Assembly (NCBI RefSeq): GCF_026151205.1
Contig: NC_087073.1
Span: 19,806,837-19,870,836, forward strand
DNA length: 64,000 nt
From: Bolinopsis microptera
Lineage: Eukaryota > Ctenophora > Tentaculata > Lobata > Bolinopsidae
Reading direction: 5' to 3'
Shown: piece after piece, positions 5,557 to 47,399 of the stretch
Layout: every line of letters starts with the position of its first letter
Numbering within the stretch: the stretch's first letter is position 1
Position numbers and translations under genes: made by a program
The notes under the pieces: generated by a model
The model's database searches: none
Seen by the model: only the letters and a program-made list of their open reading frames with translations
Told to the model about the DNA's origin: nothing

Positions 5557-5640
5557 GCTGAACCCCAGCAGAACGGTGAAACATTTGTTGATTTTGGAAA
5601 ACGATCATCTGCTGAACCCCAGTAGAACCTTATGTGAAGG
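5557..5640 (+). pseudogene. Stranded extra neuropeptide repeat beyond the stop codon
   Basis: After the TAA the same frame continues as AEPQQNGETFVDFGKR, then SSAEPQ and TAG. This is a decayed ninth unit cut off by one C-to-A change (TCA to TAA). Translational readthrough would add one more VDF-amide peptide, but nothing in the sequence shows that it occurs. Confidence 0.75.
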
Positions 5641-16700: not shown

Positions 16701-19700
16701 GCTGCTAAGCTGCTTCCCACACCTAAGGGAGGAATTGTCAATATATATGTAGTTGGTAGCAGGGTGATTTCAATGGAAAAATTAAAAGTAATTATACATA
16801 AAAATCACAGATAGTTTTAAATACAGTAAAACCTCTCTATTCCGTATTTCACGGGGGAAATAGAGATCTGTAAATATCACAAAACGAACCTTTCTTTTCG
16901 CCCGAGTGAAGGAGCTCCCCACCTATCTTGTTCCATTGCGCGTGCCCGCTATTCTGTTGAAGCTCATTCTTCTGTCTTGCTAACAGCTGCTGGTGTGCTA
17001 ACTGCTGTTGGCGTTCGTATTCCTGCTGCTGCGCTATCAGCGCCTCTTGCTGCTGTTGCGCTTGCAGCTGCTGAGCTTGTAATTGCGCGCGCTGTTGTGC
17101 TTCTAGCGCTGCTTGCTGTTCTGCTGCAGAAGGGACCACTGGTTTCGGTTTAGCCTCACTTTGTACTACGATTATCTTGCGTTTAATTGCACTCAGTACA
17201 TGTTTGTAGAATGGGTTAAGTTCGTGATCGGGCTCCAGAAAACTGAAATATTGAAAATGTATAAATATCATGATATGTCATGTTATACAATATTAATATT
17301 TTATAGTTTTAACATTCATGCTAGAAACTTGAGGGCGAAGCTCATATCAAATACGATTTGAAGCTTTAATTCTGTCCATAAACAATAAAAATACAGTGTT
17401 TAAACTGATCAATTGGGCAGCTCAGTCTAAAACAGCAGCTAACAAGGTACCAACTTACTGGAAGATAGGGTTATCTTTCTGTTTTGTCCGGATTACTATC
17501 TCGGTTTGCAGGTTCTGTGTACTGAGAAAAGCAGCAGTTTTCTCCACTACTTTGTAATGTTTGTCCGTTTTCGGCTGAGGAATGTTACACGTTAGTTTAT
17601 ATTCTTCTAGCTAGGAATATAAATAGTTTTACAATTAGTATCATTATTTACAAGTAACTATATCCACATACCGAAGAAGGAAATATCTTAGTGGGTACCA
17701 CGTTTGAAAAATATCTAATTATGAAAATGTCGGGACAAACCGTTATCATTCCATCTGGGACAGCCAAGTTCTTATCAGGAACGTAAACCTCTTCCGAGAT
17801 AGAGGTTGGTTTGGAGACTGTTTGTGGAACATTTTCTGCACGGGGGATAAATTATGTTTTAAATGCGCAATGGGATATGTAATACGGGTAAAAGTGTTAT
17901 CCTAGATCATCTCAATGACCATGAGCCGATGAACTAGCTAAAACTTATTGGACCTGCTACGAATGCCTTAGTAGTATTTTGCCAATAAGAGCCTGCGATG
18001 AATGTATCTTAGATTCGCACAATACTTCAAAAAAATACAAGCAGCAATGTCACAGTTGTCTGGGCTGGTCTTACTCTTCAAGAAATGTGAGAGAGTGTGA
18101 TTGGTGTGAACTAGCAGTCCACAAGAAGTGTTATAGATATGAGCTAGGATGCGTCAAATGCTGCGTAGAAAACATACCTGGTTACAGCACTAGCAGTATA
18201 GATCTAAATGATGATTATAACTCCTCCTCAATCCGGCACACTTACAACCCTTACAATAAATCCAGCCTCATAAATTCAATTGGAAACCAAATAGAGGAAC
18301 TTGAGCACGACTCCATGTATTGGAAAGATCTTAGTGAAATGCTAACAAGATGTGAGTACATTCAACAAGTCCATATCTCACCATCAAAAACCAATGAACT
18401 AAAAGTATTTTCATTAAACGTACGATCTTTACACAAAAACATAACTCATTTCCGAGAAGAAATTCACACGTATCTAAATTACGATATACTGAGTTTCAAT
18501 GAAACAAACTGTGCTCTAAGTAAGCTACCTAACGGTATTAATGACATACTTCTAGAGGGATTTCATGAGCCGATATTACAGGAACCAGCACGTACATCTG
18601 GCCGTGGGGGTGGACTGGTGTTATACGTAAATAGACAGGTATGTACAGAGGAGCAAATAGAACAGTACAGGCCAAACTTCAGCTGTGAGGAAGAAACAAG
18701 TGGTGAATTCCAATTTATAAAAATCCACAACTGCAAAGGTTTTAACAAGACCAAGCTACTAATCAATGTTTACCGCTCACCATCGCGTAATGTTGATAAG
18801 TTCATGAAACTGCTAGATAATGTACTTAGAAGCCTAGACAGGCACTCACGTAAACACATTTTATTCACGGGTGACTTCAATATTGATCTAATAAAATACG
18901 ATAAGGACGTGCACAGTCAGAACCTTGTTGCAACTTTTGAAAACTACGGTTTCATTCAAATGATTTCAAGGCCCACCAGAATTACAGACCACAGTGCAAC
19001 ACTCATAGACCACGTGTATTCTAATGACATCAAGAACACGGCAAGTTGTCAGGTGCTTACTCTACACGTATCAGACCACCTAGCCACCCTTACTACGCTT
19101 CTACTTGGGGACAGAGAGGGGCCATGCGGGAGGGTTACAAGTAAAAAACCAAGTATCAAACAGGCACGGAGATTTGGCGAAGCTAACAATGCTAAATTTC
19201 AAAGTTTGATCGAAAGTGAGGACTGGAGTGAAGTGAGTTTACACGAAAATTGTGAAGTACAGTACGAAAAATTTTGTGAAATTTACACCAAACATTATGT
19301 TGAGGCATACCCCTTGAACAAATCCAGGCCGCGGCGTAAAAATGAACGAAGAGATCCAAAACCTTGGATTCTTCCCTGGCTAGAGGATGCGTGTGCGCGA
19401 AGGAATAAGCTCCACCACCTAAAAATCACAACTTCAACCAAGGCCAATGATGAAGCGTATGAAAAAATTGATAAATTCTGCAACAAGCACATTGACTTAG
19501 CTAAAGCAAAATATTATAAGAAATTTTTTGACGAGCATTGTGAGAACTCTAAAAAGCAATGGCAAATGATTAACACGCTGTTGAACAGGAAGTTGAAAGA
19601 AAAAAATTCTATAAAACTGAAAGGCGACGACGGATCTATTATCAGCAATGGCACCGATGTTGCAGCAAAATTTAACAACTACTTCTCAAATATAGCTTCA

Positions 19701-21845
19701 AACATTAAAGCACAGATTAGTGCTAGACAAACTTTTGATCCTGGGGGTTTTAGTAGATATCTTAGGAACCCAACATCGAATTCGATGTATCTTAGGCCGG
19801 TAACACCAACTGAGGTGAGTGAAGTGATTCTAAAATTTAAGAATAAGTCAACACTGGATACCAAAATTGGGCCGATGAAAGTCGCAAACCATGATAGCAA
19901 GTTCACCGGTGTGATTTCTACTATCATAAACTCATCATTTACACAGGGCATATTTCCAACTGCTCTTAAAACTGCACGCGTAATCCCTATCCACAAGGGA
20001 GGTAGTAAGACAGATGTCACTAACTATAGACCCATATCTCTTCTTAGCTCATTCTCAAAAATTTACGAAAAGTTAATGCACACTAGAGTCCTTGAATTTC
20101 TTGATAAAAACGGCTCTCTGTTCGAAAGCCAATACGGCTTTAGACCGGGGATGTCATGCGAGCATGCTCTTCTTAATGCACAGAACTCTATCCTTCATTA
20201 CCTTGGCAGGAAACAAATTGCGGTGCTCCTACTGTTAGACTACTCCAAAGCTTTCGACCTACTTGAACATAAAATTTTGCTTAAAAAACTGGAACACTAC
20301 GGAATTAGAGGTATAGCACTAAGCTGGTTCGACTCCTATCTTCACGATCGTCATCAGTTCGTCACAGTCAACGGGGTTGATTCCAGTCCCAAGACGATCA
20401 ATTATGGTATTCCTCAAGGCTCTATTCTGGGCCCCCTACTCTTCGTCATCTATATAAACGACCTCCCCGGAATCTCAGACCTGGCCAAGTTCATACTTTA
20501 CGCCGATGATGCAAATATTATAGTCACGGGCCATAACGAGGAAGAAATTCAAAGTAAGCTCTCTATGATTGCAACACTTCTAGTGAATTGGGTAAGTAGC
20601 AACGGGCTTTCTTTAAACCTGAAGAAGACCCACTATATGGTCTTCAGTAACCGTAAAGTAGATTATTCCAAAATAAGTCTCAACATATCTGGAACAAACA
20701 TTGAACGGGTTACTGAGGCACGGTTTCTGGGTGTTATAATTGATGAGAAACTAACATGGTGTAAACATATCACAGCGGTAAGATTAAAAATGAGTAGGTA
20801 CATAGGCATCATTTTCAAATTAAAACGACATCTGCCCCTAAAAGTGCGACTACAACTCTACCATAGTTTTATTGAGGCACATGTTAACTACTGCTCGTTA
20901 GCCTGGGGATTCGCGGCAAAATGTCACATTGAGACATTATTCCGTAAACAAAAGCAAGGAATGCGGATGGTTATGCCAGGATATGTAAATTACTTTTACA
21001 AAGACGGCAAATTGCCAGCTCACACCAGAGAAGCATTCTGCAAATTTGAGATTTTGACAATACACGGCATCATCGTAAAGAATGCGCTTACATTAATGCA
21101 CCGCATGAAGCACTTTCCTAACACAGTACCTGTATCAATTAGAAATTTGTTTCCAGATAACATACCCACGCATGGTTCAAATCATGAGAACAGTAGCGAA
21201 TGGCTAGATACGTACAATAACCGATGTTTCAAAGCATCCATCTTTTTTAAAGGACCTTTACTAGCTCTAACAGACACCAACAAGAACATCACGTCCCTAC
21301 CTAGCTTATTTTCAATAAATATTTACAAATCGAACGCAAAACGCGTGCTTCTTGAGCAACAGTCAACACTAGCTAACTCAGAGGACAGCTGGCCAGCATT
21401 TCTGCTACACAACGTACCTGGTTTGAGGAAGTCCAATAGATGAGGGATGATTGAGTAATACAGCGACCAATAATCGCTAAATCATGACATCATATCATAA
21501 CATAACATAACATAGGACGACAGCAAACACACAATAAACGAGCAGTAATAAACAACGTTCGCTTAATGGACTGACATATTTCAGCATATTTTTCACTGCC
21601 AAAGCGCTGATAACAGCAAGCCTTACCCCACTCCGCGCGGCTTTTTAATGCACAAAATCTTAAAGATAATTCTCGCGATAAAATTTTCATCGTCACGCTT
21701 GAAAATTTCTAGAAATTAGAATAGCCGTATATTATAACAAACTATAGCAAGCAGAATTAAAAGATAAAAGGTTCTGGGACTTAAGTGGTACAAATAAAAT
21801 GAAAGGCATGCTGATGCTAATCATGCTTACGTACTGTAATGTGTC

Positions 21846-27307: not shown

Positions 27308-30300
27308 ATGGTACTCTGGGTGGCCTTGATAGTTTTAAGCTACATCCAGTCAGTACACAGCCAAAACTACGATCTCCATTTTAAAAATCCTGTTAATACA
27401 GTGTTTTCTACTCTTGGGATCAACAACGAGCTTCAGAACTTGATAAGAAGTCCAGTAAACTTTCTAAGGGACCAGTTGTTATCTTATTCTCAACAGTCTG
27501 TGGACTCTAAAGATGATGATTCCAAAGTTTGTGAAACAAAGGTCTTGTCGCTTGTTGAGTCCTTGAAAACTGAAGAAAGTCTCAAATGTAAGATATTTGT
27601 ACATGATATATATTTATGTTTAAAATGTTTCATGTCAGTTCAGGAATATAATAGGATGTGGGACGTGTGGGGGGCTAAAAATTTCTGTCAACTGTTTTCA
27701 AAATTATTACTAGTGTCTTTCAGTTGTTGATGCACTTGGTAAACCTCCAAGTGGTTTTCTCAATGGTAACACAGTTCTCATGGGAAGTTATGACACATGT
27801 ACATCTATGATCAAATCCGCGGGCTATGGTAGCAACTACAAACCCTGTAAAATAAAGGCTCTTATGACAATGGTAGGTAGTGCACCCCCTAACAATGGTA
27901 CTTAGTCTTACTTAATTTCTTGGAAACGTTTTATACTCGCTATTTATAAGTTATTGGATACTACTATCAAAATATATTTGATATCTTGAATCTCTGATGC
28001 TAGTTTGTAATTTTGGCAGTATCTAGATAGCCCGACCCCTGTCCGCGGACAACTGTCCACGGACAACTGTCCACGAACACCTGTCCACCAGATCATATTA
28101 CTGCATCAGAGGACATAGATGCGTTACACCCAGGACAGGACATGGAGCTCTTTAGGAGGCTTTTCTGGAATAGGAAGTCTCGAGCATTCTCTGGGGAGGT
28201 CGTGGGTCCATTCATTTCGTCTATTAGACGGAAGAGTACCATGTCAGGAATTGGAATAGTTTTTGTTGTTGTTATTGAGTTATTGATGATGGCAACTGAT
28301 AATACTTCACCAAAAACGAACGACTTATATGCCACATTTAAATCGTAATCATTTATTTCATTGAGCAATATACTACGCTACAATCAATCCGGGAGTTGAT
28401 GCACAGGACAAAGCTTTGTTATCTTTTTGTAGTGGTATGTAGAATCCCATCGAGGATCGATGATGTGAACCCTGCTTGATTCAGGGGATACTGTTATTAT
28501 GCAGTAATATGATCTGGTGGACAGGTGTTCGTGGACAGTTGTCCGCGGACAGGGGTCAGGCTATCTAGATACTGCCGTAATTTTCCATAAAACAGTTTGT
28601 AATATTACATTATTTCTTGCAGGGCAACAATTCAGTTGGTGGCACCCCACTTACATGGACAGTTTGTTTTCCACAAGAATGTCGTGGTGGCAACTTCACT
28701 TCCCTTAAGCAGGGTTTACTCAAAATAATAAACAGCCGGTGGGATCCAGTGCACATAGCTGAAAGTAGTGTAGTCACAACATGTGATACAGATTACAACT
28801 ATAGCGCTGGATCGTACTGTGCTATTGTCCTGATATCAGTGATTGCGTTCATGGTGCTAGTCGGAAGTATGTGGGACCCTGTAGTGATGCTCGTGACATC
28901 TCTGAAAGTAGCAGAGGAGAGGAAGGTTCTGGTTAACAGTGAAGAAGGTGGTGCAGTGGATGAGATTGTCCCAGATAGTCCTGCTGTCCAGTCAAAACCT
29001 GTCTTGGACCCATTTAAAAGCTCTACTTTAGGTAACAGTAATACAGTCTTACTTTTTCTACGATGGGGGTGAATATAAGTTAGGGTTGGATTGAAACATC
29101 TATTTATTAGTCTTCCTCAGTTATCCATGATGAATGATGATCAATGCATGATAAAATACTTTAACATTTTTCTATAGTTAAGATTATTATTACTAAAAGG
29201 TGTTTCTATTCCAGGCGAGGTGTTGAAGTGTTTCTCTGTGCAGCGAACAGTTGGAGCCCTTCTAAACACCACTACCAAGGAGGGACAAATCCTCTGCATG
29301 AACGGAATCAGAGTCCTGAGTATAAATTGGGTTGTTCTGGGCCATGTTTACTATATCGGACTTGGAGCTGCAGGTGATCTTAGCATACACTTACAGTTAG
29401 TTTAACAATTAATATACTGACAAGTCTAGTTGGTTCTAGAGTATCTTGCATGATTTGATTGATAATTTTTCTATCATCACTCATCAGTGAAAACCATAAA
29501 CTCCTTTAAATTTCAATCCATCGAGGTGATTTGGTCTATATTAACACGCTTTATCGACGAAACACATTTACCTTCACTTGGAATGGCTTGCCTTCTGTTG
29601 ACTCTTTTTTCTTAATGAGGTACCTTGGCATTGAGTAGTCTCTGCAGTGTTGTTCATGTTGATTCACCAAGCTGTACAGAAGGTGTTCTTAGCTTGTGTC
29701 AACTAAAATTGCGTCCACAATAATTATACATTATATCGATTTATTTTAAAATACGTGAGATTTATCGTTATTTGATATTTGCTTGATGTTAGTAATTTTA
29801 TTAATGTTTGTGTAATCGATAAATGTACGTATGGTAAACTTGATATTTTTGGAAGTAACACTGATTTAGTGTAAATTGAGTGTAATGTGTTTTCAGATTA
29901 CACTGACTACATATCCATGTGGCGTAAAATTCCAATGGCAATAATCTATAATGCATTACCAGCAGTCGATACTTTCTTCTTCATAAGGTTTGTTTATTGC
30001 TATTCTAGTTATTCAATATCGTGTCATATTAATTTGCAAATAACCCAGCTATAGGGTGATATAATCTATTCTGGGAAACTATTGAGCAGTATAATTGACT
30101 TCAAAAATTTACTTCTTTACTGGTGTAAGCGTAGCATGTAAGGTTTTAAAATCATTCGTTTTAGCGGTTTCCTTGTTTCTCTTCTCCTCTCAAAAGACCT
30201 GGCAAAAAGAGGAAAGTTTAACGCTGTTGGTTACTATCTACACAGATACTTACGGTTAACTGTACCGTTTCTTGTCGTGACTCTTGGACAAGGGTTTCTT

Positions 30301-33300
30301 GCTCAGATATTTATTAGGGGCCCGTTTGAGGACATCCTTACTAAAGTTAGTAGCAATGCCGAGTAGTTTGTTAAATTAACCTTTAAGTTTATTACAAATC
30401 AGGAATTTGATAGTTAAGTTCGCAGGCCTGATTCCTAGTTGTGGTTAATGGTAAAACCTGTGGCTTGAAAGTGCACAGTACCAAGCTTTATTGAGGATGA
30501 TTTAAATGTAATGTGTTCTGTGTACTATAACTGATAACACTAGGGTAGTGAAAACTGTAACAAGTGGTGGTGGACTAACATTCTCTACATCAACAACTTC
30601 GTCCCTTGGAACAAAGTGAGTGTTTTAGATTTATTACATTATTCAGTAACATTTTATTTTGGGATGGATCTATATTTTCCTCCTTATATTAATTGTTATT
30701 TACTTGAATTGTACCAGATTCTGATAAATTTCGTGAATAATGTAATAATTATATGCTATTTTTGTTCCTTCAGCTTCATCACCATTTAACTAACTATACA
30801 ATATGAAATTTCAGCTAGAAATATGCGTTGGACAGTCCTGGTATTTATCTAATGATTTCCAGTTCTTCATTGTAGCCCCACTCTTCATCTGGCTTCTTTA
30901 CAAATCACCTAGAACTGGTTGGTATTTAATTGAATAAGCACAGATTCAGTTTTATTCGTTTCAAAATGGAATCAAATCTGATATCACCAAAGCATTGCGT
31001 TCCATTGATTTACAGGAATTGCTCTAATTTCTGCTAAATAGAGTGTGAACTGCTTTGAAGGTGCGTGACTGCAAATATTGGATGACATCATATCTTATCA
31101 GTTCATTGAAATTTGAGCACTTAAAGAAATGCATGTACGTCAAGAGATAAGAACCTAGGATACTGTAAGCTTATACAAACAAAAAGCAATTCCCATTGTC
31201 ACGAGATTGAGATAAGAAGATAAGATACAGGAAGGTTGTAGCAAGCAAATGAATGCTATCACGCCTGGTGGTAACGTAGGGTTACCACTAGGTATTAGGA
31301 TACAACTGGAGTGCCCCTTATTATGGGTTACAGAACAGTGTCCTCCATATAGAATTAGGATACAACTGGAGTGTCCCTTATTATGGGTTACAGAACAGTG
31401 TCCTCTATATAGAATTAGGATACAACTGGAGTGTCCCTTATTATGGGTTACAAAATAGTGTCCTCTATATAGAATTAGGATACAACTGGAGTGTCCCTTA
31501 TTATGGGTTACAGAATAGTGTCCTCTATATAGAATTAGGATACAACTGGAGTGTCCCTTATTATGGGTTACAGAATAGTGGCCTCTATATAGAATTAGGA
31601 TACAACTGGAGTGTCCCTTATTATGAGCTACAGAATAGTGTCCTCTATAATTTCACAGTTTTAAATTACTGGAAAATCCACCACAACCCACAGAGTTAGA
31701 GGGATCCTTTAGACAATACAGTTGAAATTGTGCTTTGAGTAGTAGTGAGGCAAAATGTTAGGTCCTGAGAACATTATAACAGAAATCTGAGAACTTGGGA
31801 ACCTGATAACCTGAGAACATTATAACGGGAGATAAGATAATGTAAAGTTCAGATTATTTGAAGCAAAGTCAAACGTAAATTTTTAGAGACGTGCTTAGCC
31901 CCTTTACTATTCAATGCTATGACAAATGACAATATGCTGAATATGGACAGGATCAGGAATCAGTATTATTCCAGATGATGATAAATTCTGATATAACTAC
32001 TATTATTTCCCCCAGGAATTGCTGTAACAATGACTACGCTAGTCTGTAGTTGTGTGGCTGCGGGCGTCATTACTTACGGTTATAACCTGGGCCCTTCCAC
32101 TGTATTCGAGTAAGTTTCAACCACAAGTTTATTACAATTTACAATACTTGTAAAGTATTCCGGATAAATTCAATAATAAATCTGCCAAAATATACCTAAG
32201 GTTGGTTTTACACGATCAGCCTATCCTGGACCGATTGAAAAATTGAACAATGGAATTCTGGATTTCAATGCGTGGTTATGACATAACGCATGGGGTATTC
32301 AGTTTAGAGTTCGAAGTTTCAAGCAAAAATTAAGGCAGAATGTATCGACAAGTTTTGAGAGATCTTGTTACATGATGCAACTTGTCCAGTGTACTTTTAA
32401 CATAAAAATTAAGTAAGCTGCACTGCGGGCGCCACAAATAGCATTGAAACTCAATTCCATTGTTTGACCCTGCAACTATTTTCAGTCCGAATGCTGCCAA
32501 CTTCACAGACTTCAAGCTGCTGTACGATAAGCCGTGGATACGTTGCCCTCCCTATCTGATAGGACTGCTTGGAGGCTGGTTTTGCTTCAAGAACCTGGAC
32601 AGTCTCAAGTTGTATATCAGCCGACTCCGCTTCGTATGTGACGCTTCTTTTGCCTTTGTTATCAGTTCCAACTATAAATAAACTACCATAGTAGTGTTTA
32701 AGATTGTATATTTTTTAGTGAACTTGAGAATGTGCGCAAAAATATTGAGATGTAACCCTACTTTGTACTCAGCAGTGCAGATTGTAGTATAACTTGTTTA
32801 TAGATGAATACATACCACATGACGTACAACAACTAGTACTCATCACAAGATTATTTTACAAATGTATGGCCTCTCCGACTAGTACTAGTAATACATCACG
32901 TGATACTTGCTTACTTGTGATGCACCACGTGGGCACTAACTAACACGTGGGCACTAACTAACACGTGGGCACTAACTCCTTGTTACACGCAGATAACGAG
33001 GCTGCTACTCAGTGTGGTAATCTGGATAACTACCTGCACTGTCCAGTACTGGGTTACATTCGGTCTTCACAATGATATGCTCAAGAAGACATGTGGGTAA
33101 AATACTGTCTTGGTACTGTGCCAACTTATGGTACTACATTGTTATATCGAGTGCAGTAGTGTGGTCGAGTTAACGGTTATATAACCATGTGACCAGTAAT
33201 GATGTTGTCACATAAATGTCTAGTTTCCCGAATGTTGATATGAGTATATTGCTGACCCTAATATCCTACAGCTGGAGAAAATATAAGTCTGACAGGGAGT

Positions 33301-34668
33301 GTGATGTACGAGACATTTGCTAGATCTAGTTGGGGGATAGCTTTACTGGTTCAGATTGTCAGTTGTCAGTGTGGATTAGGAGGTAAGACATTTGCTAGAT
33401 CTAGTTGGGGGATAGCTTTACTGGTTCAGATTGTCAGTTGTCAGTGTGGATTAGGAGGTAAGACATTTGCTAGATCTAGTTGGGGGATAGCTTTACTGGT
33501 TCAGATTGTCAGTTGTCAGTGTGGATTAGGAGGTAAGACATTTGCTAGATCTAGTTGGGGGATAGCTTTACTGGTTCAGATTGTCAGTTGTCAGTGTGGG
33601 TTAGGAGGCAAGACATTTGCTAGATCTAGTTGGGGGATAGCTTTACTGGTTCAGATTGTTAGTTGTCAGTGTGGGTTAGGAGGCAAGACATTTGCTAGAT
33701 CTAGTTGGGGGATAGCTTTACTGGTTCAGATTGTCAGTTGTCAGTGTGGGTTAGGAGGTAAGACATTTGCTAGATCTAGTTGGGGGATAGCTTTACTGGT
33801 TCAGATTGTCAGTTGTCAGTGTGGGTTAGTAGGTAAGACATTTGCTAGATCTAGTTGGGGGATAGCTTTACTGGTTCAGATTGTCAGTTGTCAGTGTGGG
33901 TTAGGAGGTAAGACATTTGCTAGATCTAGTTGGGGGATAGCTTTACTGGTTCAGATTGTCAGTTGTCAGTGTGGATTAGGAGGTTAGGGATGGGCTCATT
34001 TTTAGTTCTTAACAGTGAACAATGAACATTCCTCATCGTGGTGTAAATCAACGGGTTAATTACAATCCGCATTTATTCTTTTCAACGAGAGCTAAAACTC
34101 CGGTTTGGAATAACACTCTATTCCCAGGAATAATAAATAAAGTATTGAGTTGGAAGGGTTGGATAGTTCTGTCCCGGTTAACGTTCGCAGTGTATCTTCT
34201 ACATTATATCATTATACAGTCCTTCATAGTTCAACTTAGACATCCTTTCTTCTACAAGCCGGATTATGAAATTGTGAGTGTAATAATTGCAGATATAATC
34301 TCAAATAGGTATTTAGTAATATCGATAATATGAGCTAATGGAATACTATTGTAATTAAAATTCGTTTAACCATGAACACCTTCGTGAGTATCAAATATCA
34401 TTTATCAAGCGAATGCTGTGCTAAAATTTACAAAGTCTATAACAAAATTACAAGAATTCACTTTATTAAAGGGACTCCTTGCTCGTTCAGATCATAGCGC
34501 AAAAGTTATCCACAATTTCTTTTTCTGTGCCACCCACGTTTAACCTCGTTATTTCAGGCCATTCTGTACTTTGGTTTCCTGGGAATGTCCTACCTTGCTG
34601 CAGCTCTCCTCTTTACTTGTGTGGAACAACCTCTTACTTTCCTTGAGAGAATGACTTATCGTAAATGA
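27308..34668 (+). CDS. NRF-6-like membrane acyltransferase, copy 1 (14 exons)
   Basis: A multi-pass acyltransferase-3 family protein with an N-terminal NRF domain; C. elegans NRF-6 relatives act in lipid and drug transport. Exons: 27308-27587, 27724-27872, 28623-29031, 29215-29373, 29897-29987, 30165-30345, 30544-30615, 30815-30917, 32016-32109, 32486-32633, 32993-33092, 33272-33382, 34128-34273, 34558-34668. All phases agree; the shortest form has 717 residues. Signs: a signal peptide (MVLWVALIVLSYIQSVHS), NRF motif VDALGKPPSG with GSYDTC, the acyltransferase start NGIRVLSINWVVLGH (Arg and His conserved in the family), HRYLRLTVPF, NILYINNFVPWN, GQSWYLSNDFQFF, DKPWIRCPPYLIGLLGG and VEQPL at the end. 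Exon 12 carries nine 75-bp tandem copies, so longer in-frame isoforms are possible. Exon 11 uses the donor at 33093 (GTGGGT) to keep phase. Confidence 0.92.
28015..28576. mobile_element. 562-bp inverted-repeat element in intron 2, 8-bp TSD
   Basis: The terminal inverted repeats of about 85 bp begin GGCAGTATCTAGATAGCC and contain GACCCCTGTCCGCGGACAAC, with an internal tandem of CTGTCCACGGACAA. Perfect 8-bp duplications GTAATTTT are at 28007-28014 and 28577-28584. A 91-codon minus frame (28093-28368) has no recognised domain. An 8-bp duplication fits hAT-like transposition, but the ends are not a standard hAT sequence. Confidence 0.88.
31296..31650 (+). repeat. 60-bp minisatellite, six copies, intron 8
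   Basis: A unit starting ATTAGGATACAACTGGAGTG and ending near CCTCTATATAGA repeats every 60 bases with few changes. The period is a multiple of three, so it stays open as a 20-residue repeat in one frame, but it sits between well-defined coding exons. Confidence 0.9.
32925..32977 (+). repeat. 18-bp direct repeat, three copies, before exon 11
   Basis: CACGTGGGCACTAACTAA is repeated three times and ends 15 bases before the exon 11 start at 32993, so it overlaps the usual branch-point window. Each copy contains an E-box (CACGTG) and a branch-point-like CACTAAC. Confidence 0.85.
33311..33985 (+). repeat. 75-bp coding tandem repeat (9 copies), each with its own splice donor
   Basis: Each unit encodes TFARSSWGIALLVQIVSCQC plus GLGGK, a predicted membrane helix. 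The unit aligns with one segment of the paralogue (SLARIAWSTALTAQILLCQS at about 46890). The exon/intron boundary AG/GTAAG is copied with the unit: GT donors follow 33382, 33457, 33532, 33757, 33832 and 33907; copies 4 and 5 have GC instead (after 33607 and 33682); copy 9 ends GGTTAGG and then a stop in frame. All donors share one phase. Confidence 0.95.
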
Positions 34669-35760: not shown

Positions 35761-38700
35761 ATGTCATTAAAGAATGCCGTACTGTTTAGTGTCCTAACAG
35801 CCGTATGTTGTCAGATCCAAATACCTATTTCCTCCCAAGACCTTAACCCAATCTTTGGTGATTTCAACCCCGGTTTAACGAATTTCTCACTTCCGGGAAT
35901 AAATTTGGGAGAAGAACCCAAGTTGTCTGATGTGGCTGACTCGCTATGTTTGACAAAGATCAAGGGATTGTATAACGGGCTGACGACTTTCAACCAGGAA
36001 AGCATCGCTTGTGAGTATCCCCAGTTCCTAATACATGATTTCAGGCCCTCACTTAGCTTTCAGCATCATTTGGTTATTTAGTGGTGACTGTAAGATTGAA
36101 GTAAAGGATGCTTAATAGATATGATGATGGCCATGTCAAGTCTTTTAACGAGACTTGACACATGGTGACATATCATGTCTAAGTAGCTTTGCCACATTAT
36201 TTTCTCACGTGAGATGTTTTGCAGTTTTTGATGCGGCTGGGAAGCCAGGACCCGGACTGACTCAAGGGAACTTGCTTATGATGGGAGGATATGACATGTG
36301 CCTGAGTATCAAGAATGCTACAGCCGGCTACTACAACTTCTGTTATGTGGGTGCCCCGGGTAAACTTTTCGTAAGTCTGATTTTGCCTTCTCAATGGTTA
36401 ATTCTACATTTGAATCTTAGCCAGTAGATGGTAATGTCACTGCATCCAGTTCAAAGGAAACTGAATTTAGATGGCAAGTGTTGACTGTTTGTTCAGAATA
36501 AATTTTAGCATGGTGTCTGGTATCTAATCTAGTCTTCTACTTCATTTACTCCAGCGGTCAGCAATAGTGTTTTTTATCAAAGAAATGAAAATCAAACCGA
36601 AACAACTAAAAACACACTCAGTATTTATAATACAACTTACACAGAATAGAAGAGAAAATCTATAAATAGAATTTGAGCGATATACTCGGATATACAGCAA
36701 TGAAAAGATAATTGCTGGCCTTTAAAATGGAAAAGTGTAATCATTTTATGAACAAGATAAAATTAGCGATAAGGGATAAAGTGTATATAATATTAGTAAG
36801 TACAGACGTTCGGTTGAAAGTTAAAAGACATATTGTGGGGCCACTTTTCTGTCACACAAAAGCTGGTTACCAGTTCTTTACGGAGCGCGCGGAGTGTTAA
36901 ATGACATTTTATCGCGCGTCACGTACGTACGTACGCGCGTGCGCGCGCATGTTTGTTAGAAATTGTACTTGCCAGTACGTACGATGACATGATGTGAGAG
37001 TCAGGTCAGCCATGAGCCATGTGATTAAGTAATAAATATAGTGACTGCCAACTGGTAGCTATTTAAGATACATTTAAAATGAACAACCGTTTTGGTTAAT
37101 AAATAGCTAGCTTATTGCGGCACGATTGCACAGATTTCCGGTTAATTATCTACTTAAATTAATCTGTTATCTTACTCAGGGATATCCGATAAGAATTGAC
37201 TGGACGGGGTGTCTACCTGTAGAATGTCGTAATGGTAGCAACACAGACGTTGAGAAATGGATAAGTTCGTTCATACCATTTGGGCAGCTAGTCTTGGAGC
37301 CTGGGACCATGAATTGCGAGACTGATGTAGAGCTCGGTACTGGTGCTATTTTGGGATACGTCTACCTTGGCATTGTCGCTTTTCTTGTTGTTTTAGGTAA
37401 GAATAATATTATAATAATCATTTTAACATGGCACATCACGACAAAAGATCAATTTGTTTTAATCAACCAAATTTGAAGAAGCTACAGCATATTTATTTTG
37501 TGAATATAATACGAGTGTGACAAGGATGATGATTAATCAATCTACACTCGACTGTCACGTGACTTTTTCAACTCGTTCTGTAGCTGGTCCTGAACGAATA
37601 TTCGAAACCCTAACCCTCTAATCTGATCCCAACCCTAACCCTAACCCAATCCTTAACAAAAGCATATGCTGAAACACTAACCCTAACGATTATAAATTGG
37701 ACTAACTTCCTTATACGGTCATATCACGTGATCGAGACAGTTTTTCGCCAATATCTCGTCAGCATTTTAACGCTATGTCATAGGGGGTGATTCGGAATCA
37801 GCGTCCGAAAATACATCGATTGAAGTTGGTTTCAACTGTCGGGGGCCCTTATAGAACAATCTCGAAGATCGACTGTAGAGTGATTTAGCACGCTCGGTGT
37901 GACAAAGACAAAATATCGACCCTTTATAATTACGCCGGCCTCTCATCAACAACCCACTATTTTCAGGGACACTGTGGTACACATGTCATCCTGTAATCAA
38001 GAGTATCATCACCTCTGGACCTCCTGAAGACAGACAAGTTCTGGTGGATTGTGAGGAGAATAACGAGATCATTCCAGACACACCGCAGGAGGGTGAAAGT
38101 GCTGGCAAACCAGCCCAACCTCGGTCAGTGGCTCAGCCTGAACAACAGACGGAATCTTTGCTCAGCAGATTCTGGAAATGTTTTGCGTTGCAACGCTCGT
38201 TTGGGAGCCTCACCAGCACAACCACCAAGCCAGGACAGGTGCTCTGTTTGAACGGAATCAGGGTACTTAGCATAAACTGGGTGGTTTTGGGACACACTTA
38301 TCTCAACTACATGGGACTTCTCGGCGACAAGATGTATCTGGGGACTCTGCTGAACCGGAGGAATAGTCCCATTATTATAAACGCAAATCCGTCAGTGGAC
38401 AGCTTCTTCGCGTTGAGTGGTTTCTTAGTTGCGTATTTGTTGCTGAAACAGTTAGCTAAAAGTGGTGGTCCTAGAAAGATGGGAGTAGCTAAGTGGGTAG
38501 CTTATTATCTTCATCGTTATCTGAGACTGACAGCTCCTTATCTAATGGTCGTGTTACTAGAGGTTGGTTTCAATCACTGAAAGTCGGGTGTCCTGAGATA
38601 ACCCAGCACAGAGAAACTGCTTTTTTGGTTTTATCCTGCACTAAGGGGGGGGGGGGGGGGGTTCACCCTGATTTTTTTGTGAAACTTGGTTTCGAGATAG

Positions 38701-41700
38701 TAGTTGACCAACAAACTAGGACCAGTGACCGAACTTTTGAGGGGGTCCCGGACCCCAACCGCCAAACGGTGCCCGCGGGGCAGCCACGCCCATATTTGGT
38801 CCAAATTAGGCCCAATTTAGCCAAATACCCTGAACATGCCGAAAATCCAGATTTTAGGTGCTCTACTTGTAGCTAGTGGTCCCCTGAACTCGTATATGAA
38901 TTTTCATCAAGATTGGACAAAAAATGACTGAGTTCTTTCTGTCGGACCGTCATCAACATGTTGTTCTGAACGGGGTGTCTTCCTTCGCAGCCTTGGTTCT
39001 CAGTGGAGTCCCCCAAGGAACCGTTCTTGGACCCCTCCTTTTCATACTCTTCATAAATGACATGAAGCTTTGTGTGACTGGTTCAATTATAAGATTCTTT
39101 GCTGATGACACCCGTTTACTGAAGCACATATATACAGAACAGGATGTTATCGTTCTTCAGCAAGATCTCGACCATGTCATTGCATGGGCCAAACGTAATA
39201 ACATGGTTTTACATGAGGATAAGTTTGAGCTCCTAGTTCACCGGGGAAATCCTAATGAGAGTCTGTATGAGCTGCCTTTTGTATGTCAAACACAAACATA
39301 CAAGGTGTCAGGCGGTAATATGCTCTATCCTACATACCAAGTTAAGGATCTTGGAGTTATAGTGTCTTCGGATTTGTCGTGGTCACATCATGTCAGTTCT
39401 ATGGCATCTCGAGCTAGAAAAGTGGCAGCCTGGGTGCTCAGTGCGTTCAAGTGCAGAAATAGAACCACAATGTTGACACTTTACAAGTCACTTATCCGAA
39501 GTCATTTAGAGTACTGCTGCCCTCTGTGGAATACCAGTAAAATTTCAGACATCCAACAGATTGAAGGAGTACAGCGTACTTTCACCTCAAGGATTTGGGG
39601 TGTTCAACATCTTGACTATTGGCAGCGGCTCAAAGCACTAAATCTAATGTCGATGCAAAGGAGGAGAGAGCGTTATATTATCATCCACATGTGGAAAATC
39701 TTACATCAACGCTGCCCAAATGACCTTGGGATTCTTTTTTCTACTCCATCAAGACACGGAATCAAGGCCACCATTCCAAGTCTCAGCAAGAGCAGTACTC
39801 AACGTCAACAGTCATTGTATGATGGTTCATTTGCAGTAATGGGGCCACGTTTATGGAACACCATTCCATCAGATCTTCACCTCATTGAAGACCCACTGCA
39901 GTTCAAAGCAAAACTATCAGCATTTCTTAAACCGTTTCCAGATAACCCACCTGTGAGCAATTACAGCTGCCCTAATGGAAATTCTTTGCTGGACTGGAGT
40001 ATGAATAAGGCAGCAGCGATGCTGCAAGGGCGGTCGAACTATTCGATGACCCAGTAGAGGAATCTGCGAATCTCTCCAAAGTATCCAAAGTAAGTAAGTT
40101 ATGAGCAAAAAACCATATGACCATATTTGGGCATACGCACCAAATTTGATCGAATTTGGCCCATAAATTGGTCAAATATCAATATTTTTGAATGAAACCA
40201 ACTTTATATGAAAGGTAAGCCTATACTACACATTATCTATGATTATCAGCTCAGTATCTACCTAACTGTGGATTCTGTGTTCAAATAATCGCAAAAAATG
40301 AACAAAATTGCCCATATCTCCAAGGATGGTAAATGCGTTTTGGGGAGACTACGCGTAGGTACTACGCATACGTATTTCCCGATGATAAATTACGTATTTC
40401 AAATTAAGTTGCAGTAACGCGCGAACATCTATATATAAATATTACATTACAGTATATGGAATCGTGGCCTAATTGGTTAATACGCTAGCTCCATATCAGC
40501 AGATTGCGAGTTCGAGACTTGGATAGGATAATTTTTTCCCATACTTTTTGGCAATTATGAATAACTAATGAATAACTAAAAATACCTCTGTAATATAACT
40601 AGCAAGGTGAAATGAAATCGTCATCCGGCCGAAAAATTTATTATAGCCGTTTTAAAAGTTTATTATAGCCGTTTTTTCTTTCCAGGCTGGATTCCTAGTC
40701 ACTTTTTAAACTTATGCCACTGGGAAGTCCGTGTTAATCCGGTAACCGGTTTCAAAATTCAAGCAAGAGAGACTTGTGATCTTAGTCTGCGAATATTGCA
40801 ATAGATAAAAATGCACTGGAACTGGGTCTCGGTTGAAAGTCTATTCCTCGAGGGAGGCATAACTGCTTTATAACCTGAGAAGCTCTGCTCTGCAGCAGAC
40901 TGACTGATTGGTTGGTTCAGCATAAGAATAGCAAGTCGCTGCAGCGTTTTCATTCGAGCACCGTGAAGTCTCCAAAACGACTATCAGTATTGCTATATTA
41001 ATATACCACTGGGCCAGCGACGCACGCGCAAATATCACTAATCTGTAATCACGTATTTCGAAAGAGATACGCGCGTATTTTGAAAAATTTTACCATCAAA
41101 GAATTTAAGCGCCAAATTTTGCCGTATTTCACGTATTTCTTAGAATTTTTGAATACGGCGTATTTACAGGCGATTTTTTGACGTATTTACCATCGATGCA
41201 TATCTCAGTTCGCGATATTTGCAAAACTGATTTCGCTCAAAACAATAGAACTCAATAGGGTTTCAATATTTTTACATGAAAATTTCAGAATCAACGTAGA
41301 ATCGCATTTCGACCTTAAGTTTTGTATTGGAATTTTGAGTTAGGCCTTTAAAAAATTTGGCGGCCAAAATTTGCAATGCGAAATTCAGAATTTGGCCGCC
41401 AAATTTTTTTAAAGGCCTAACTCAAAATTCCAATACAAAACAAAAGGTCGAAATGCGATTCTACGTTGATTCTGAAAATTTCATGTAAAAATATTGAAAC
41501 CCTATTGAGTTCTATTGTTTTGAGCGAAAACAGTTTTGCAAATATCGCGAACTGAGATATGGGCAATTTTGTTCATTTTTTGCGATTATTTGAACACAGA
41601 ATCCACAGTTAGGTAGATACTGAGCTGATAATCATAGATAATGTGTAGTATAGGCTTACCTTTTATATAAAGTTGGTTTCATTCAAAAATATTGATATTT

Positions 41701-44700
41701 GACCAATTTATGGGCCAAATTCGATCAAATTTGGTGCGTATGCCCAAATATGGTCATACGGTTTTTTGCTCATAACTCAGTCATTTTTTGTCCAATGTTG
41801 ATGAAAATCCATATACGAGTTCAGGGGACCACTAGCTACAAGTAGAGCACCTAAAATCTGGATTTTGATTATGTTCAGGGTATTTGGCTAAATTGGGCCT
41901 AATTTGGACCAAATATGGGCGTGGCTGCCCCGCGGACACCGTTTGGCGGTTGGGGTCCGGGACCCCCTCAAAAGTTCGGTCACTGGTCCTAGTTTGTTGG
42001 TCAACTGCTATCTCGAAACCAAGTTTCACAAAAAAATCAGGGTGAACCCCCCCCCCCAAACCCCCCCCCCCCCCCCCCCCCCCCCCGTTTTCTCCTTACT
42101 GATTATTTAAATAGATTATAGAGGAGTGAGAACATGATTAATTCTTAATCTCCCCATACATCGGGCACCTTAATTTTTAACTTTTTAATCATTTACGTCA
42201 CCTCTATTCTTTACCCGTATTTTCCCTTATTTTCTATTTACTCTATGTAATGTTTTAATTCAGGGATTTCTGTACAGACAGTGGGTGACTGGACCGCTAA
42301 CCTTTGCCATGGACGGCCCGGATAAAGCATGTCAAGACTACTGGTGGGCAAATATCTTGTATATCAACAACCTGGTCCCCTGGAAAGCGACGGAAGTATG
42401 TGTGGGACAGACCTGGTACCTGTCAAATGATATGCAGTTCTACCTTATCGCACCTGTCTTCGTCGTGCTTCTCTTTTGGAAACCGTTAACAGGTTTGAAA
42501 TTGTTGATGTTTTCGATTTGTTATCCTGGGGCGATTACAGTTTTTATTTCGTGTGAAGTTGGAAGTTTTGACCGAATTTATGTTGGGAATTAAATTTGTT
42601 AATTATGGTTGACTATTCATGTTTTCTGACACAACGGTAGAATCATTATTAACTATCCAAGCAACGAAGTAACTTCTCAGGGATATTAACCAGTGTTGCT
42701 GTTATTTTATCCAGTACAGTAGCAACTGCTATAATTACCTATCACTACAGACTGGGCCCTGCTTCAGCAGCTGAGTGAGTTACCGTATCCATGATCCATC
42801 TGTTACCAAACTTGACGAAATCTCCCCGGCAACGGCATAAAAACACACAAAAAATGACCAAAAACTGACCCTTATATCGCATAACGTATTGATACGCATG
42901 GCTTCGTGCGGTCGAAAGAATCTAAATATAACCAAATCTCTTTATAGTTTGAACGATGATAACTTTTGGCTCGTGTACAACAAACCTTGGATACGTATAA
43001 AGGCTTACTTAGTCGGAATTCTTGGCGGTTGGATCTATTGGAAATACGGACAGACTTTGCAAGACCGTGTTAACAAGATGCCTGAGGTGGGATATATTTG
43101 TATCTGAACCACTTGATCTGATCATGATACTTACTCCAATGTAAAAAGTTAAGCAAAAAGTATTTTCGAAATGAGACTTAAGTGTGAAAACTTAAGCCAT
43201 ATTTCGCACATAAGTCTTTTCACTTAATTCGAGAATTTTGGTCTAGTGGTTACTTAAGTGCCTAAATTGTAGTACTAACTCAAAAATATTAAAAGGAAAA
43301 CAAGTTGGAAGGGTGCAAATTAAAAGTAAAATTACAGAATTGCCTACGAATAGTACGAATAATAATATAACAAAATAAATTTAACATTTTATGACACGAA
43401 AAATTGTCTAACAATTTCATTTCGCTGATTTTTTCCTTTCCTTAAAAGAACTCGAGCTTGCTCATTTTCGTCGTGGTCAGTGTCATCCTGACTCACTGAA
43501 TTGTCTCTGTCATTGAGATGAGGCAATATTTGACATGGTTTAATCTCCTCCTTATGCAGTAATTGTGTTATATGATACACTGGAGATTAAAAGGCATGTG
43601 TTGAAAATGAAATTAAAAACATTTAGTTGACATTTAGAACATGAAACTGTAAACGAAAACGAAAGGTTGGCGGATAAATTTTGTGTCTCTATTCCTAACT
43701 GGACAGAGAAACAATGATTCCTGCACAAGAGATCCTTAAAAGATATTTACCATCAACAATATCACAGTTTCTTTTCACAATCTCGTAAACATCTCTTCTA
43801 GCTTCCCCGCTTAAATCCTGGTACTCAGCCTGCAAGAGGAAGGATACACCGTCAGTGTCATCGTTTATCATCGACCCACCCTGCTCTCGAATAAATTCGT
43901 CTACGTGTAAGTAGGTATTATCCTCCAGCACAGAAACTATCAATTCCGGATGTTTAACTCGGATGTAAGACGTTATCTTCAGTGCCGTGAGAGCGTGGTC
44001 TCCGTGTGTCAGACTGGAGCTAAAGATGTTCGGATCACTCCGGTTTATCATGTAGGTGTATAACTCAGAACTTACAGATTCTCCTTCAAGGAATATGATA
44101 ATTTTGCCATGGGGTTTCAGAAACTTTACTGCGTAAGAAACCGCTTCAAATGGGTCTTCGACAGTGTACAAGCACTGTGATAGCATTATGATGTCAAATA
44201 GAGGACTCCCGTATTTCTCATCGAACTCAAACTCTTTGCTAAAGAATGATGTATCGATATCGTACTCGGCACCAAGACTTTTCAGTTCAGCCTCCAAAAG
44301 TGGAACATGGGCAGGATTCGGCTCGATAGCATAGAGATACTCCAACTTCAGCCCCTGTTTCTGAACCAACATTCTCTCAAAATTTCCTATACCGGCACCA
44401 ATGCTCAACATATGCACCGGCTCCTTGTCAAAGTTGTTCTCTAAAATGAACTTCTTGGCAATACTAGCCATAATATCGTATTGATTGGAGTGAGAAACGA
44501 ACCTGGCGAATGTTCTCGCATATCCCTCCATAGTGAGGGGAGTAGTAGTTTCGAGTGGTAGGTCTCTTTCAGTCATTATTCAAACTGTAAGTTCTCCTGT
44601 AAAATGGTGAATAAGGTGAGTTTAGTAGGAGGTATCAAATAAGGTGAGTTTAGTAGGAGGTATCAAATAAGGTGAGTTAAGTAGGAGGTATCAAATAAGG

Positions 44701-47399
44701 TCCCTCTCCCTCTCCCTCTCCCTCTCCCTCTCCCTCTCCCTCTCCCTCTCCCTCTCCCTCTCCCTCTCCCTCTCCCTCTCCCTCTCCCTCTCCCTCTCCC
44801 TCTCCCTCTCCCTCTCCCTCTCCCTCTCCCTCTCCCTCTCCCTCTCCCTCTCCCTCTCCCTCTCCCTCTCCCTCTCCCTCTCCCTCTCCCTCTCCCTCTC
44901 CCTCTCCCTCTCCCTCTCCCTCTCCCTCTCCATCTCCCTCTCCCTCTCCCTCTCCCTCTGATCCCTCTCCCTCTGATCCCTCTCCCTAGAGGTATCAAAT
45001 AGGGTAACTTTAGTAGGAGGTATCAAATAAGGTGACTTTAGTAAGAGGTATCAAATAAGGTGAGTTTAGTAGGAGGTATCAAATAAGGTGAGTTTAGTGG
45101 AAGGTATCAAATAAGGTGAGTTTATTAAGAGGTATCAAATAAGGTGACTTTAGTAAGAGGTATCAAATAAGGTTAGTTTAGTAGAAGGTATCAAATAAGG
45201 TGAGTTTAGTAGGAGGTATCAAATAAGGTGACTTTAGTAAGAGGTATCAAATAAGGTGAGTTAAGTAGAAGGTATCAAATAAAGTGAGTTTAGTAAGAGT
45301 GAGTTTAGTAGGAGGTATCAAATAAGGTGAGTTTAGTAAGAGGTATCAAATAAGGTGAGTTTAGTAGGAGGTATCAAATAAGGTGAGTTTAGTATGAGGT
45401 ATCAAATAAGGTGACTTTAGTAAGAGGTATCAAATAAGGTGAGTTTAGTAGGAGGTATCAAATAAGGTGACTTTAGTAAGAGGTATCAAATAAGGTGAGT
45501 TAAGTAGAAGGTATCAAATAAGGTGAGTTTAGTAAGAGTGAGTTTAGTAGGAGGTATCAAATAAGGTGAGTTTAGTAAGAGGTATCAAATAAGGTGAGTT
45601 TAGTAGGAGGCATCAAATAAGGTGAGTTTAGTAGGTGGTGTCAAATAAGGTGAGTTTAGTATGAGGTATCAAATAAGGTGACTTTAGTAAGAGGTATCAA
45701 ATAAGGTGAGTTTAGTAGAAGGTATCAAATAAGGTGAGTTTAGTAAGAGGTATCAAATAAGGTGAGTTTAGTAGAAGGTATCAAATAAGGTGAGTTTAGT
45801 AATAGGTATCAAATAAGGTGAGTTCAGTAAGAGGTACAAGTAGTAATGTAGGGACCGTTCGACCACCATTTGAAGAGAACCGGGGCAGGGAGTGATTATA
45901 ACCCTAACAGGAAGAATTAACCCTGATTATACCCCAATTAGACATCAATTAGCCCAATCATGACGCAAAACTGGAAACTAACCCTGTCTCTTAAAATAAC
46001 TGTCACCAGAAACGGTAATAACCATAGTACAGATAGTATTATAGAGGGAAGTACTTATCAGTTGCTCTCATCTTGTCCGACAGCGACTCTTGTCCTATTC
46101 CGAAATTAAGTTTTCCGGACAACAGTCGCTGTCGGAGTCCTTTGAATCAGCGACTGTAGTCTAAATTTCGGATCAGATTTGTTTTTCAGTACAAGCTGGG
46201 AGTATAAGATCCGATATCACATGACAATCAGAAAGTGAAAATTTAGATCAGGTCTCAAATTCGGAAAACAGTCGGTCTTTTCACAAGTACGCACAATGTG
46301 TTGGAATCTAATGTTGGAAAGGTACAATATTTAATACTCTGCCTCAATCGTGCTCATGACCAGTGTAACAAGCCCCAAAATAACTATAACACCTTCTATA
46401 AGGATAATTCTAGATTTATACATCTTGATGTTTTCGGAGACTCGGTGTTAAACATTGAACATTTATCGAAGTATAAAGATTAATCTTACGGTATTATATT
46501 TCCAAATTGATTATAATTGTAGAATGAAGATCTTACTATTGTTTGCACCCGCAGTGGAGGAAGGTTCTTGTAGCATGTCCCATTTGGGCTGCCACGTGCG
46601 CTATACAGTGGGCTGTTGTCTTCGGGCTATACGACGACATAAAGAACGCTAGGCTAGGTAAATGTATAATAAAAGAAATTTACATATCGATGTTGAAATA
46701 CCACGAAAAATAAACTGCGTCTTCAAAGATATTACAGTTACTACGTATTACTCTATTAATTGATGAAACCAAATATTTCTCAATTCAATTATCGACGCGT
46801 ATTCTAAAATGATAAAGTCTAACCCACTCTTGAAACTCGCAGAGAACAAACAACCTGGTGAAGCAGACAGCATATCCTACAGCAGTTTGGCTCGTATAGC
46901 CTGGTCCACCGCTCTCACGGCACAGATCTTACTGTGTCAGAGCGGTCTGGGCGGCTTCATCAACTCTATTCTCAGCTGGAATGGTTGGCTGGTATTGGCT
47001 AGGCTCACTTACTCGGTTTACCTTTTACATTTGGGCTTGATGAGAGTGCTGGCGGTTATAATCAGGCATCCTTTCTACTTCAATCCTGACTTTGAACTGG
47101 TACGACCTCTTTCACGTCAAACAGCTTCATTTTAGTTTTGTTCCATTTCTTTTTAATTCTCTGAGATATAAATAAAAATAGGTTTCTGTCACTAGCAAAA
47201 ATCTAACGAATCGGTACTTTATATTTTGTCAGAATCTACCGCAAATCACTACAGCTCCAGGTATAAATTTAACAGCATTCTCTTACAGGGTGTGAAGTAT
47301 CTGGGTATCTTGATGATGTCCTACCTGGCAGCAATAATTCTCTATGTGTGTGTCGAGCAACCCCTTGCTTTTCTTGAGGCTCTAACATACAGAAGATAA
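35761..47399 (+). CDS. NRF-6-like membrane acyltransferase, copy 2 (10 exons)
   Basis: A tandem paralogue of the gene at 27308. Exons: 35761-36010, 36225-36370, 37180-37396, 37967-38562, 42264-42492, 42681-42774, 42948-43086, 46555-46657, 46843-47099, 47289-47399; phases agree throughout, giving 713 residues. Signal peptide MSLKNAVLFSVLTAVCC; NRF motif FDAAGKPGPG and GGYDMC; acyltransferase start NGIRVLSINWVVLGH; HRYLRLTAPY; NILYINNLVPW; GQTWYLSNDMQFY; NKPWIRIKAYLVGILGG; C-terminal VEQPLAFLEAL. Intron positions differ from copy 1: exon 4 here corresponds to copy-1 exons 4-6 plus part of exon 3, exon 5 covers copy-1 exons 7-8, and exon 9 covers copy-1 exons 12-13. Intron 4 (3.7 kb) contains nested transposons; intron 7 (3.5 kb) contains an antisense gene. 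The substrate is unknown. Confidence 0.92.
36912..36951. repeat. Alternating purine-pyrimidine tract (Z-DNA-prone)
   Basis: GCGCGTCACGTACGTACGTA runs into further CG/TG steps up to GCGCGCATG, about 35 bases of nearly uninterrupted alternation within intron 2 of copy 2. Confidence 0.7.
37500..37893 (+). repeat. Dispersed repeat with interstitial telomere-like CCCTAA motifs
   Basis: About 390 bp in intron 3 of copy 2. It contains ACCCTAACCCTAACCC near 37630 and unique flanks (CGACTGTCACGTGACTTTTT; CAATCTCGAAGATCGACTGT). The same unit is at 50998-51400 in reverse, and a partial one at 62316-62423. Confidence 0.85.
38935..40096 (+). mobile_element. 5'-truncated LINE (RT C-terminal half) inside the foldback arm
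   Basis: The open frame 38924-40057 enters from host repeat sequence. It contains LSGVPQGTVLGPLLFILFIN, FFADDTRLLKH (the YADD/FADD catalytic box), KDLGVIVSSDLSWSHHV and RSHLEYCCPLWN, and ends near 40057. The 3' tail is AAGTAAGTAAGT. A 4-bp AGTT duplication (38931-38934 and 40097-40100) flanks it. The N-terminal endonuclease and finger region are missing, so it is dead. The CR1-like affiliation is from motifs only. It differs from the LINE at 17925. Confidence 0.88.
40321..41198. mobile_element. hAT transposon remnant with 8-bp TSD
   Basis: An 878-bp insertion. The ends CAAGGATGGTAAATGCGT and CATCGATGGTAAATACGT (right end, complement) are hAT-type terminal inverted repeats. The perfect 8-bp duplication CATATCTC is at 40313-40320 and 41199-41206. 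On the minus strand, 40953-40759 encodes LAILMLNQPISQSAAEQSFS and RNRLSTETQ, the hAT C-terminal dimerisation domain. The rest of the transposase is gone, so it is non-autonomous. Confidence 0.93.
40456..40526 (+). other. tRNA-like sequence inside the hAT remnant
   Basis: GTGGCCTAATTGGTTAATAC resembles a tRNA D-arm (A box) and GCGAGTTCGAGAC a T-arm (B box) at normal spacing. The anticodon stem has a mismatch and the acceptor ends do not pair well, so this is a captured tRNA pseudogene or SINE head rather than a working gene. Confidence 0.4.
43389..44576 (-). CDS. Histamine N-methyltransferase-like SAM methyltransferase, nested antisense gene
   Basis: Two exons, 44576-43751 and 43579-43389 (joined in phase, 338 residues), inside intron 7 of acyltransferase copy 2 on the opposite strand. 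A class I Rossmann methyltransferase: motif I is HMLSIGAGIGNFE (residues about 55-67), an acidic strand-2 end IEPNPAHV, and motif IV DIIMLSQCLYTVEDPFEA. The N-terminal YARTFARFVSHSNQYDIM helix resembles HNMT. The second exon adds a charged, low-complexity C-terminus (QDDTDHDENEQ) not typical of HNMT (about 290 residues). Substrate is uncertain; small amines are an inference from family. Its upstream region is the 28-bp minisatellite with a (CCCTCT)n block. A truncated copy is at 49915. Confidence 0.85.
44597..45836 (+). repeat. 28-bp minisatellite upstream of the methyltransferase
   Basis: The unit GGTATCAAATAAGGTGAGTT plus TAGTAAGA recurs about 30 times with alternating variants (GGTGACTTTAGTAAGA; GGTGAGTTAAGTAGAA) in higher-order blocks. 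It is split by the hexanucleotide array at 44701-44987. It begins about 20 bases before the start codon, so transcription of the minus-strand gene must start within or beyond it. Confidence 0.93.
44701..44987 (+). repeat. (CCCTCT)n microsatellite, about 47 units
   Basis: Almost pure TCCCTC hexamers, with one CATCTC and two GATCCCTCT variants near the right end. The purine-rich strand GAGGGA is on the coding strand of the methyltransferase gene. It can adopt triplex (H-DNA) or G-rich structure. The long RG- and RE-repeat frames here are artefacts of the repeat. Confidence 0.95.
46072..46138. repeat. Hairpin around GTCCGACAGCGACT / AGTCGCTGTCGGA
   Basis: TTGTCCGACAGCGACTCTTG pairs with the later ACAGTCGCTGTCGGAGTC across about 30 bases, in intron 7 of copy 2. 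AGCGACTGTAGTC follows near 46148 as a third related motif. Confidence 0.7.

Follow-up and report, generated by a model that had tools for sequence, protein, structure and literature searches.

How should a gene be read when the end of one of its exons, splice donor included, stands nine times in a row? The question is raised by gene A of the ctenophore Bolinopsis microptera, whose predicted product is a membrane acyltransferase-like protein and which lies on the + strand of a 64,000-nt stretch (contig NC_087073.1; C2:19806837-19870836; hereafter the window, in whose coordinates features are given unless a contig is named). That an exon end and its 5' splice site are repeated nine-fold in this gene is a real observation. 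In the reading we prefer, to which we assign a probability of about 0.62, a recent coding minisatellite crossed the boundary between exon and intron and left a ladder of donors that compete, with the one-copy mRNA as the functional form.

An exon end and its splice donor are repeated nine-fold

Tandem Repeats Finder placed 9.0 head-to-tail copies of a 75-bp unit at 33311-33984 (+), with 98% matches, no indels and a score of 1292, the highest among its 45 rows for the window. The 75-nt spacing was reproduced by a second check, and the nine copies were also listed individually. In each unit the last 72 bases of an exon, which code TFARSSWGIALLVQIVSCQCGLGG, are joined to the opening bases of the following intron. 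In its one-copy form the exon measures 111 nt (33272..33382, +) and ends in GGAG/GTAAG, where the slash marks the splice junction. When the genome (264.65 Mb in 232 contigs) was searched with a single unit, nine matches were obtained among the best candidates scored, all of them inside the array. An earlier note on this DNA had claimed just such an amplification of an exon segment together with its donor, and had placed a stop after it; both claims hold. Read through without splicing, the array is open across nine copies and meets an in-frame TAG directly past copy 9, and the open frame (33262-33987, 241 aa) spans all copies in frame, as in a coding minisatellite. That the array is in frame is weak evidence: one period in three is divisible by three a priori, and coding sequence that is copied as a unit keeps its frame open unless a stop arises at the junction.

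The copies differ in an ordered manner. The first glycine codon of GLGG is GGA in outer copies 1-3 and 9 and GGG in inner copies 4-8; copies 5 and 7 carry unique changes, and GC donors occupy the adjacent copies 4 and 5. This order bears on whether the copy number, or the array itself, is an artefact of assembly. The B. microptera assembly was made by wtdbg with short-read polish, according to the accessible text of PMC10232365, and may misjudge repeat number. An artefact would, however, have to account for the ordered differences, and the 674 bp of the array lie far below long-read length; we therefore consider this explanation very improbable.

Nine donors face one acceptor in one phase

Donor strength was scored with a matrix of 32 curated donors from four paralogous genes (leave-one-out median 6.27). 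It took 29 of the 44 introns found by spliced alignment and three read by eye (29032, 29988, 30616); the 15 omitted introns were doubtful, had been replaced, or belonged to an alternative exon (29620) or to the array itself (33383). The set includes the same-position intron of the paralogue on C12, which has a GTT donor. The copy 1 donor (33383..33384, +) scored 9.3, as did the near-identical donors at 33458, 33533, 33758 and 33908, copies 1, 2, 3, 6 and 8 all reading GAG/GTAAGA; copy 7 (TAG/GTAAGA, 33833) reached 9.7. The GAG/GCAAGA donors of copies 4 (33608..33609) and 5 (33683) scored 3.58, at the 12th percentile, a value that is understated because the matrix holds only GT donors. Copy 9 (GAG/GTTAGG, 33983..33984), which supplies the TAG if unspliced, scored 6.87, at the 72nd percentile. 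Seven of the nine donors are thus above the median of the curated set. The earlier note's count of six GT and two GC donors stands, but its description of the last donor as broken does not: the site is changed to GTTAGG, yet GTT donors make up 11 of the 32 curated sites, so that the copy 9 donor is an ordinary one. It is possibly the original donor.

All nine donors face the acceptor CCCAG/GAATAATAAAT at 34127/34128, which opens the next exon (34128..34273, +; GIINKVLSWKGWIVLSRLTFAVYLLH..., by direct reading and spliced alignment). They join it in the same phase (GGA G/GA ATA), as the note had proposed. The acceptor matrix held 35 sites, 34 from spliced alignment, the array intron's own included, and one read by eye (29896); the acceptor at 34127, its own site being part of the matrix, scored 11.24, where the leave-one-out median was 6.69. 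With donor n in use, the exon would measure 111 + 75(n-1) nt and the intron 745 - 75(n-1) nt, the latter running from 745 nt down to 220 nt at donor 8 and 145 nt at donor 9. The nine possible lengths all fall within the 136-1098 nt range of 11 curated gene A introns (median 199 nt), and the intron upstream of the array exon measures 179 nt. Several competent donors, one acceptor and one phase are the configuration of alternative 5' splice sites.

Could two AG/GT repeat ends instead act as donor and acceptor for each other, with one or more units removed as a small intron? Units that follow GT donors are bounded by GT...AG, and removing k of them keeps the frame. Yet the GGAG/GT acceptors that this requires rank no higher than the 6th percentile among the 35 sites, and the best other AG in the array lies at the 26th. 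One 75-nt unit, though not two, is also shorter than the shortest curated gene A intron (136 nt), and the intron appears to be older than the array (below). Splicing confined to the array is accordingly something we think very unlikely.

The intron is probably older than the array

Gene B, the paralogue in the window, has an exon at 46843..47099 (+) with one copy of the segment and no intron at the position of the array intron, as the earlier note had described; the note had dated the array by this difference. An array younger than the split from gene B is supported by our comparison. The paralogue on C12 has an intron at the identical codon and phase (GGAG/GTTCGAGG...TTGACAG/GTCC), preceded by one copy, and spliced alignment left both gene B and the paralogue on C9 without it. 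Mainly because position and phase are common with C12, the array intron most likely predates the array, and its absence in gene B gives no date for the intron. In the tree, gene B, C9 and the intronless genes split from gene A and C12 with support of 94/97, just under the tool's 95 mark; gene A and C12 sit on long branches, which leaves their branching order unsure. The array alone would then be new, and the intron itself an older feature shared with C12.

The idea that the intron was born with the array was rejected on account of the C12 intron at the same position and phase, together with the tree. A duplicated exonic segment with AG/GT is present, as intron gain of this kind would have it, but the intron appears not to be new, given that C12 has it without the array; gene B and C9 lack it. 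Nor does the repeat supply both splice sites: the acceptor at 34127, a strong one, belongs to the remainder of the intron outside the array (33985..34127, +), a sequence found once in the genome.

Certain details suggest how the array may have grown. The pattern of GGA in outer and GGG in inner copies suggests growth from within. Elsewhere the same codon is GGA in C12 and GGT in C9 and gene B, so that the ancestral codon is uncertain. The base responsible for GTAAG at the unit junctions may have arisen by insertion of one base, or copy 9 may have undergone an A to T change later. Two other minisatellites in the window, one of 60 bp in 5.9 copies within another intron of gene A (31294-31649) and one of 28 bp in 30 copies at 44989, were taken as support for a genome that forms such repeats readily.

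Gene A belongs to a family that carries the segment once

Gene A extends over about 27308..34668 (+), from signal peptide to stop, with about 13 introns placed by spliced alignment to intronless paralogues. Our model of 644 aa omits the first coding residues and retains a few machine-made exon edges; the start ATG and the stop TGA were read directly in the sequence. The one-copy model exceeded the cut-offs for Acyl_transf_3 and NRF in Pfam (PF01757, 79.4 bits, cut-off 31; PF20146, 41.3 bits, cut-off 27), with NRF N-terminal to Acyl_transf_3, the domain order of NRF-6-type proteins; the note's assignment to an acyltransferase family is thereby upheld. Since the spliced model contains no internal stop, gene A was probably functional until recently. 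By hydropathy the unit encodes the third-last membrane segment of the protein. A sequence search of the PDB returned no related solved structure at E <= 1.

Ten other loci each gave a single match to the segment (one each on C13, C6, C8, C9 and C12, three on C1, one at C2:20.52 Mb, and gene B), the C12 match being weak (E 0.097) and read by eye. The family comprises seven intronless members, with 48-55% identity to the query, gene B in the window, and the intron-bearing members on C9 and C12. A Pfam search of the genome gave 19 family matches, those outside the 10 loci being more distant. No recent retrocopy of gene A that would reveal its mRNA was found, the unit and the intron tail each matching only this locus. 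The seven intronless members (L035-L041; six of 710-733 aa and one of 531 aa) are themselves retrogene candidates, and two of them, about 5 kb apart on C1, are nearly identical.

Gene A also contains two apparent versions of one exon, at 29526-29619 (94 nt) and 29897-29987 (91 nt), with the same phases. They code the start of the SGF membrane segment as GDLVYINTLYRRNTFTFTWNGLPSVDSFFLM and DYTDYISMWRKIPMAIIYNALPAVDTFFFI, and are possibly mutually exclusive. The first has a donor score of 4.15, versus 6.95 in the second, and its acceptor ends in GAG.

The one-copy mRNA is the probable functional form

We propose that a 75-bp tandem duplication, with its ends in the 3' part of the exon and just inside the intron, would have copied the last 72 exonic bases along with the 5' splice site. 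Slippage or unequal exchange within the array could then have produced the nine copies whose anatomy is described above. By the splice site scores, the outcome would be nine same-phase donors competing for one acceptor. Use of donor 1 would yield the one-copy protein of the family and leave eight copies intronic. Since donors 1-3 and 6-9 are all good, a mixture of isoforms would be expected and not the first donor alone. Function would probably reside in the one-copy mRNA; longer forms, if made, would probably be tolerated by-products and not regulated topology variants.

Two observations weigh against this proposal. First, proximity rules for human donors, as far as the accessible text of PMC9225289 gives them, cut both ways at this locus. 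When both flanking introns are short (under about 250 nt), the downstream donor is favoured, while a short upstream and a long downstream intron, or two long introns, favour the upstream one; minigenes that paired two identical donors with 365-nt introns used the upstream donor exclusively. With 179 nt upstream and 745-145 nt downstream, long isoforms may dominate, and since the rules can be read both ways we expect a mixture and make no first-donor-only claim. Second, three of the four within-copy changes are synonymous, for which the chance is 4.1 to 7.6% depending on transition bias; counting the copy 9 difference, which makes the stop, the figure becomes three of five, or about 11% (worked by hand with kappa 2). 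This hints weakly that the additional copies are translated and under constraint, four changes being too few to decide.

The same rules lend some weight to the view that the intron-proximal donors of copy 8 or 9 dominate, in which case the main protein would carry eight or nine segments and the array would be damaging the gene. Gene A introns are short, the human rule would then prefer the downstream donor, and both of these donors score above the median. The rules derive from human data, however, and adding seven or eight segments to a compact acyltransferase bundle should destroy its function, whereas the spliced model of the rest of the gene is free of stops. On balance we find dominance of the proximal donors unlikely, although it is the most serious competitor to the one-copy reading.

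Variable topology is not needed to explain the array

The earlier note had suggested an enzyme of variable topology, in which donor choice gives odd or even numbers of copies and so flips everything downstream. A shared phase for nine donors and the synonymous changes just described are compatible with this. The best 19-residue Kyte-Doolittle mean of the segment, on which our topology argument rests (Hessa-type values, weighted ad hoc, were left unused), is 1.85 in its native place, but falls to a marginal 1.31 when another copy follows; the usual threshold for a membrane segment is 1.6. Inner copies are flanked by the identical loop GLGGKTFARSS on either side, so that neighbouring copies show no difference in charge by which one could be oriented against the other. 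With an even copy number, moreover, the two final membrane segments would end up on the opposite side from those of the family. Single-sequence structure models, given little weight here, rendered the read-through array as all strand without helix and the one-copy exon of gene B as one long helix; perfect repeats can mislead such models.

Taken together, these comparisons leave a flip of everything downstream possible but unsupported. That one to nine copies give a stable, regulated ladder of proteins, with the C-terminal membrane segments oriented oppositely in its odd and even members, strikes us as the least probable of the alternatives, and a variable-topology enzyme is not needed to explain the array. 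Were it true, a DNA repeat would set a splicing ladder that in turn sets membrane topology. In a separate search, the only Pfam match of the read-through array was to MGS_GT at 28.2 bits (cut-off 27), a match rejected as a repeat artefact because no stretch passed alone.

Other features of the window

An open frame at 5068-5556 begins with a signal-peptide-like stretch, carries the repeat SAEPQENGGAYSDYGKR as a 51-bp array, and resembles a multi-copy neuropeptide precursor. It gave a borderline Pfam Gastrin match with no passing stretch, and its array (5132-5628) is an example of a coding minisatellite within the window. A 1172-aa uninterrupted frame at 17925-21443 has the endonuclease and reverse transcriptase domains of a non-long-terminal-repeat retrotransposon. 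Further repeats lie in intronic sequence of gene B. A 3.4-kb element at 38651-42057 has 284-nt inverted arms (97%) and contains nested inverted repeats together with a fragment of a reverse transcriptase; at 44610-45836 the 28-bp minisatellite occurs in about 3 copies, followed by a TCCCTC array and then about 30 copies. A methyltransferase-like gene on the other strand (43695-44579) adjoins this minisatellite.

Comparison with known systems

The locus amounts to a natural experiment on splicing choice among near-identical donors set in 75-nt steps; as every choice is in frame, each should be readable in stable mRNA. When a repeat lies across an exon-intron boundary, the array is exon or intron by donor choice only, and such a repeat can be a stage that comes before an intron lengthens or an exon grows. 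No published precedent for a donor array appeared among the papers listed in the literature searched, although most subscription papers lay outside its coverage, so that absence is unproven; the accessible text on DDX3Y and its MSY2 repeat describes a promoter repeat, not a donor array.

Coding minisatellites, or exonic variable-number tandem repeats, share with the array an in-frame period divisible by three and high identity. They differ in that the donor here lies inside the unit, and genomic copy number consequently does not fix protein copy number. Gene A resembles NRF-6-type Acyl_transf_3 proteins in both Pfam domains, and is unlike its relatives at the 10 other loci in having more than one copy of the segment. 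Near-equal donors competing for one acceptor are familiar from alternative 5' splice sites, which the available portions of PMC9225289 and PMC10228655 describe as donor pairs; here there are up to nine, in equal 75-nt steps and one phase, made by a repeat. A likeness of origin exists to the fission yeast genes SPOG_01682 and SOCG_00815. According to the accessible part of PMC3629103, the stretch duplicated in tandem contains a proto-splice site, which is AGGT in the model and AGGC in fission yeast, where several 24-nt units resulted; splicing can remove copies and leave the protein unchanged. In gene A, by contrast, the real donor of an apparently older intron was duplicated, the acceptor lies outside the array, and each of the nine 75-bp copies codes a whole membrane segment. 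The array is thus an unusual variant of known processes, tandem duplication across a splice site combined with competition among alternative donors.

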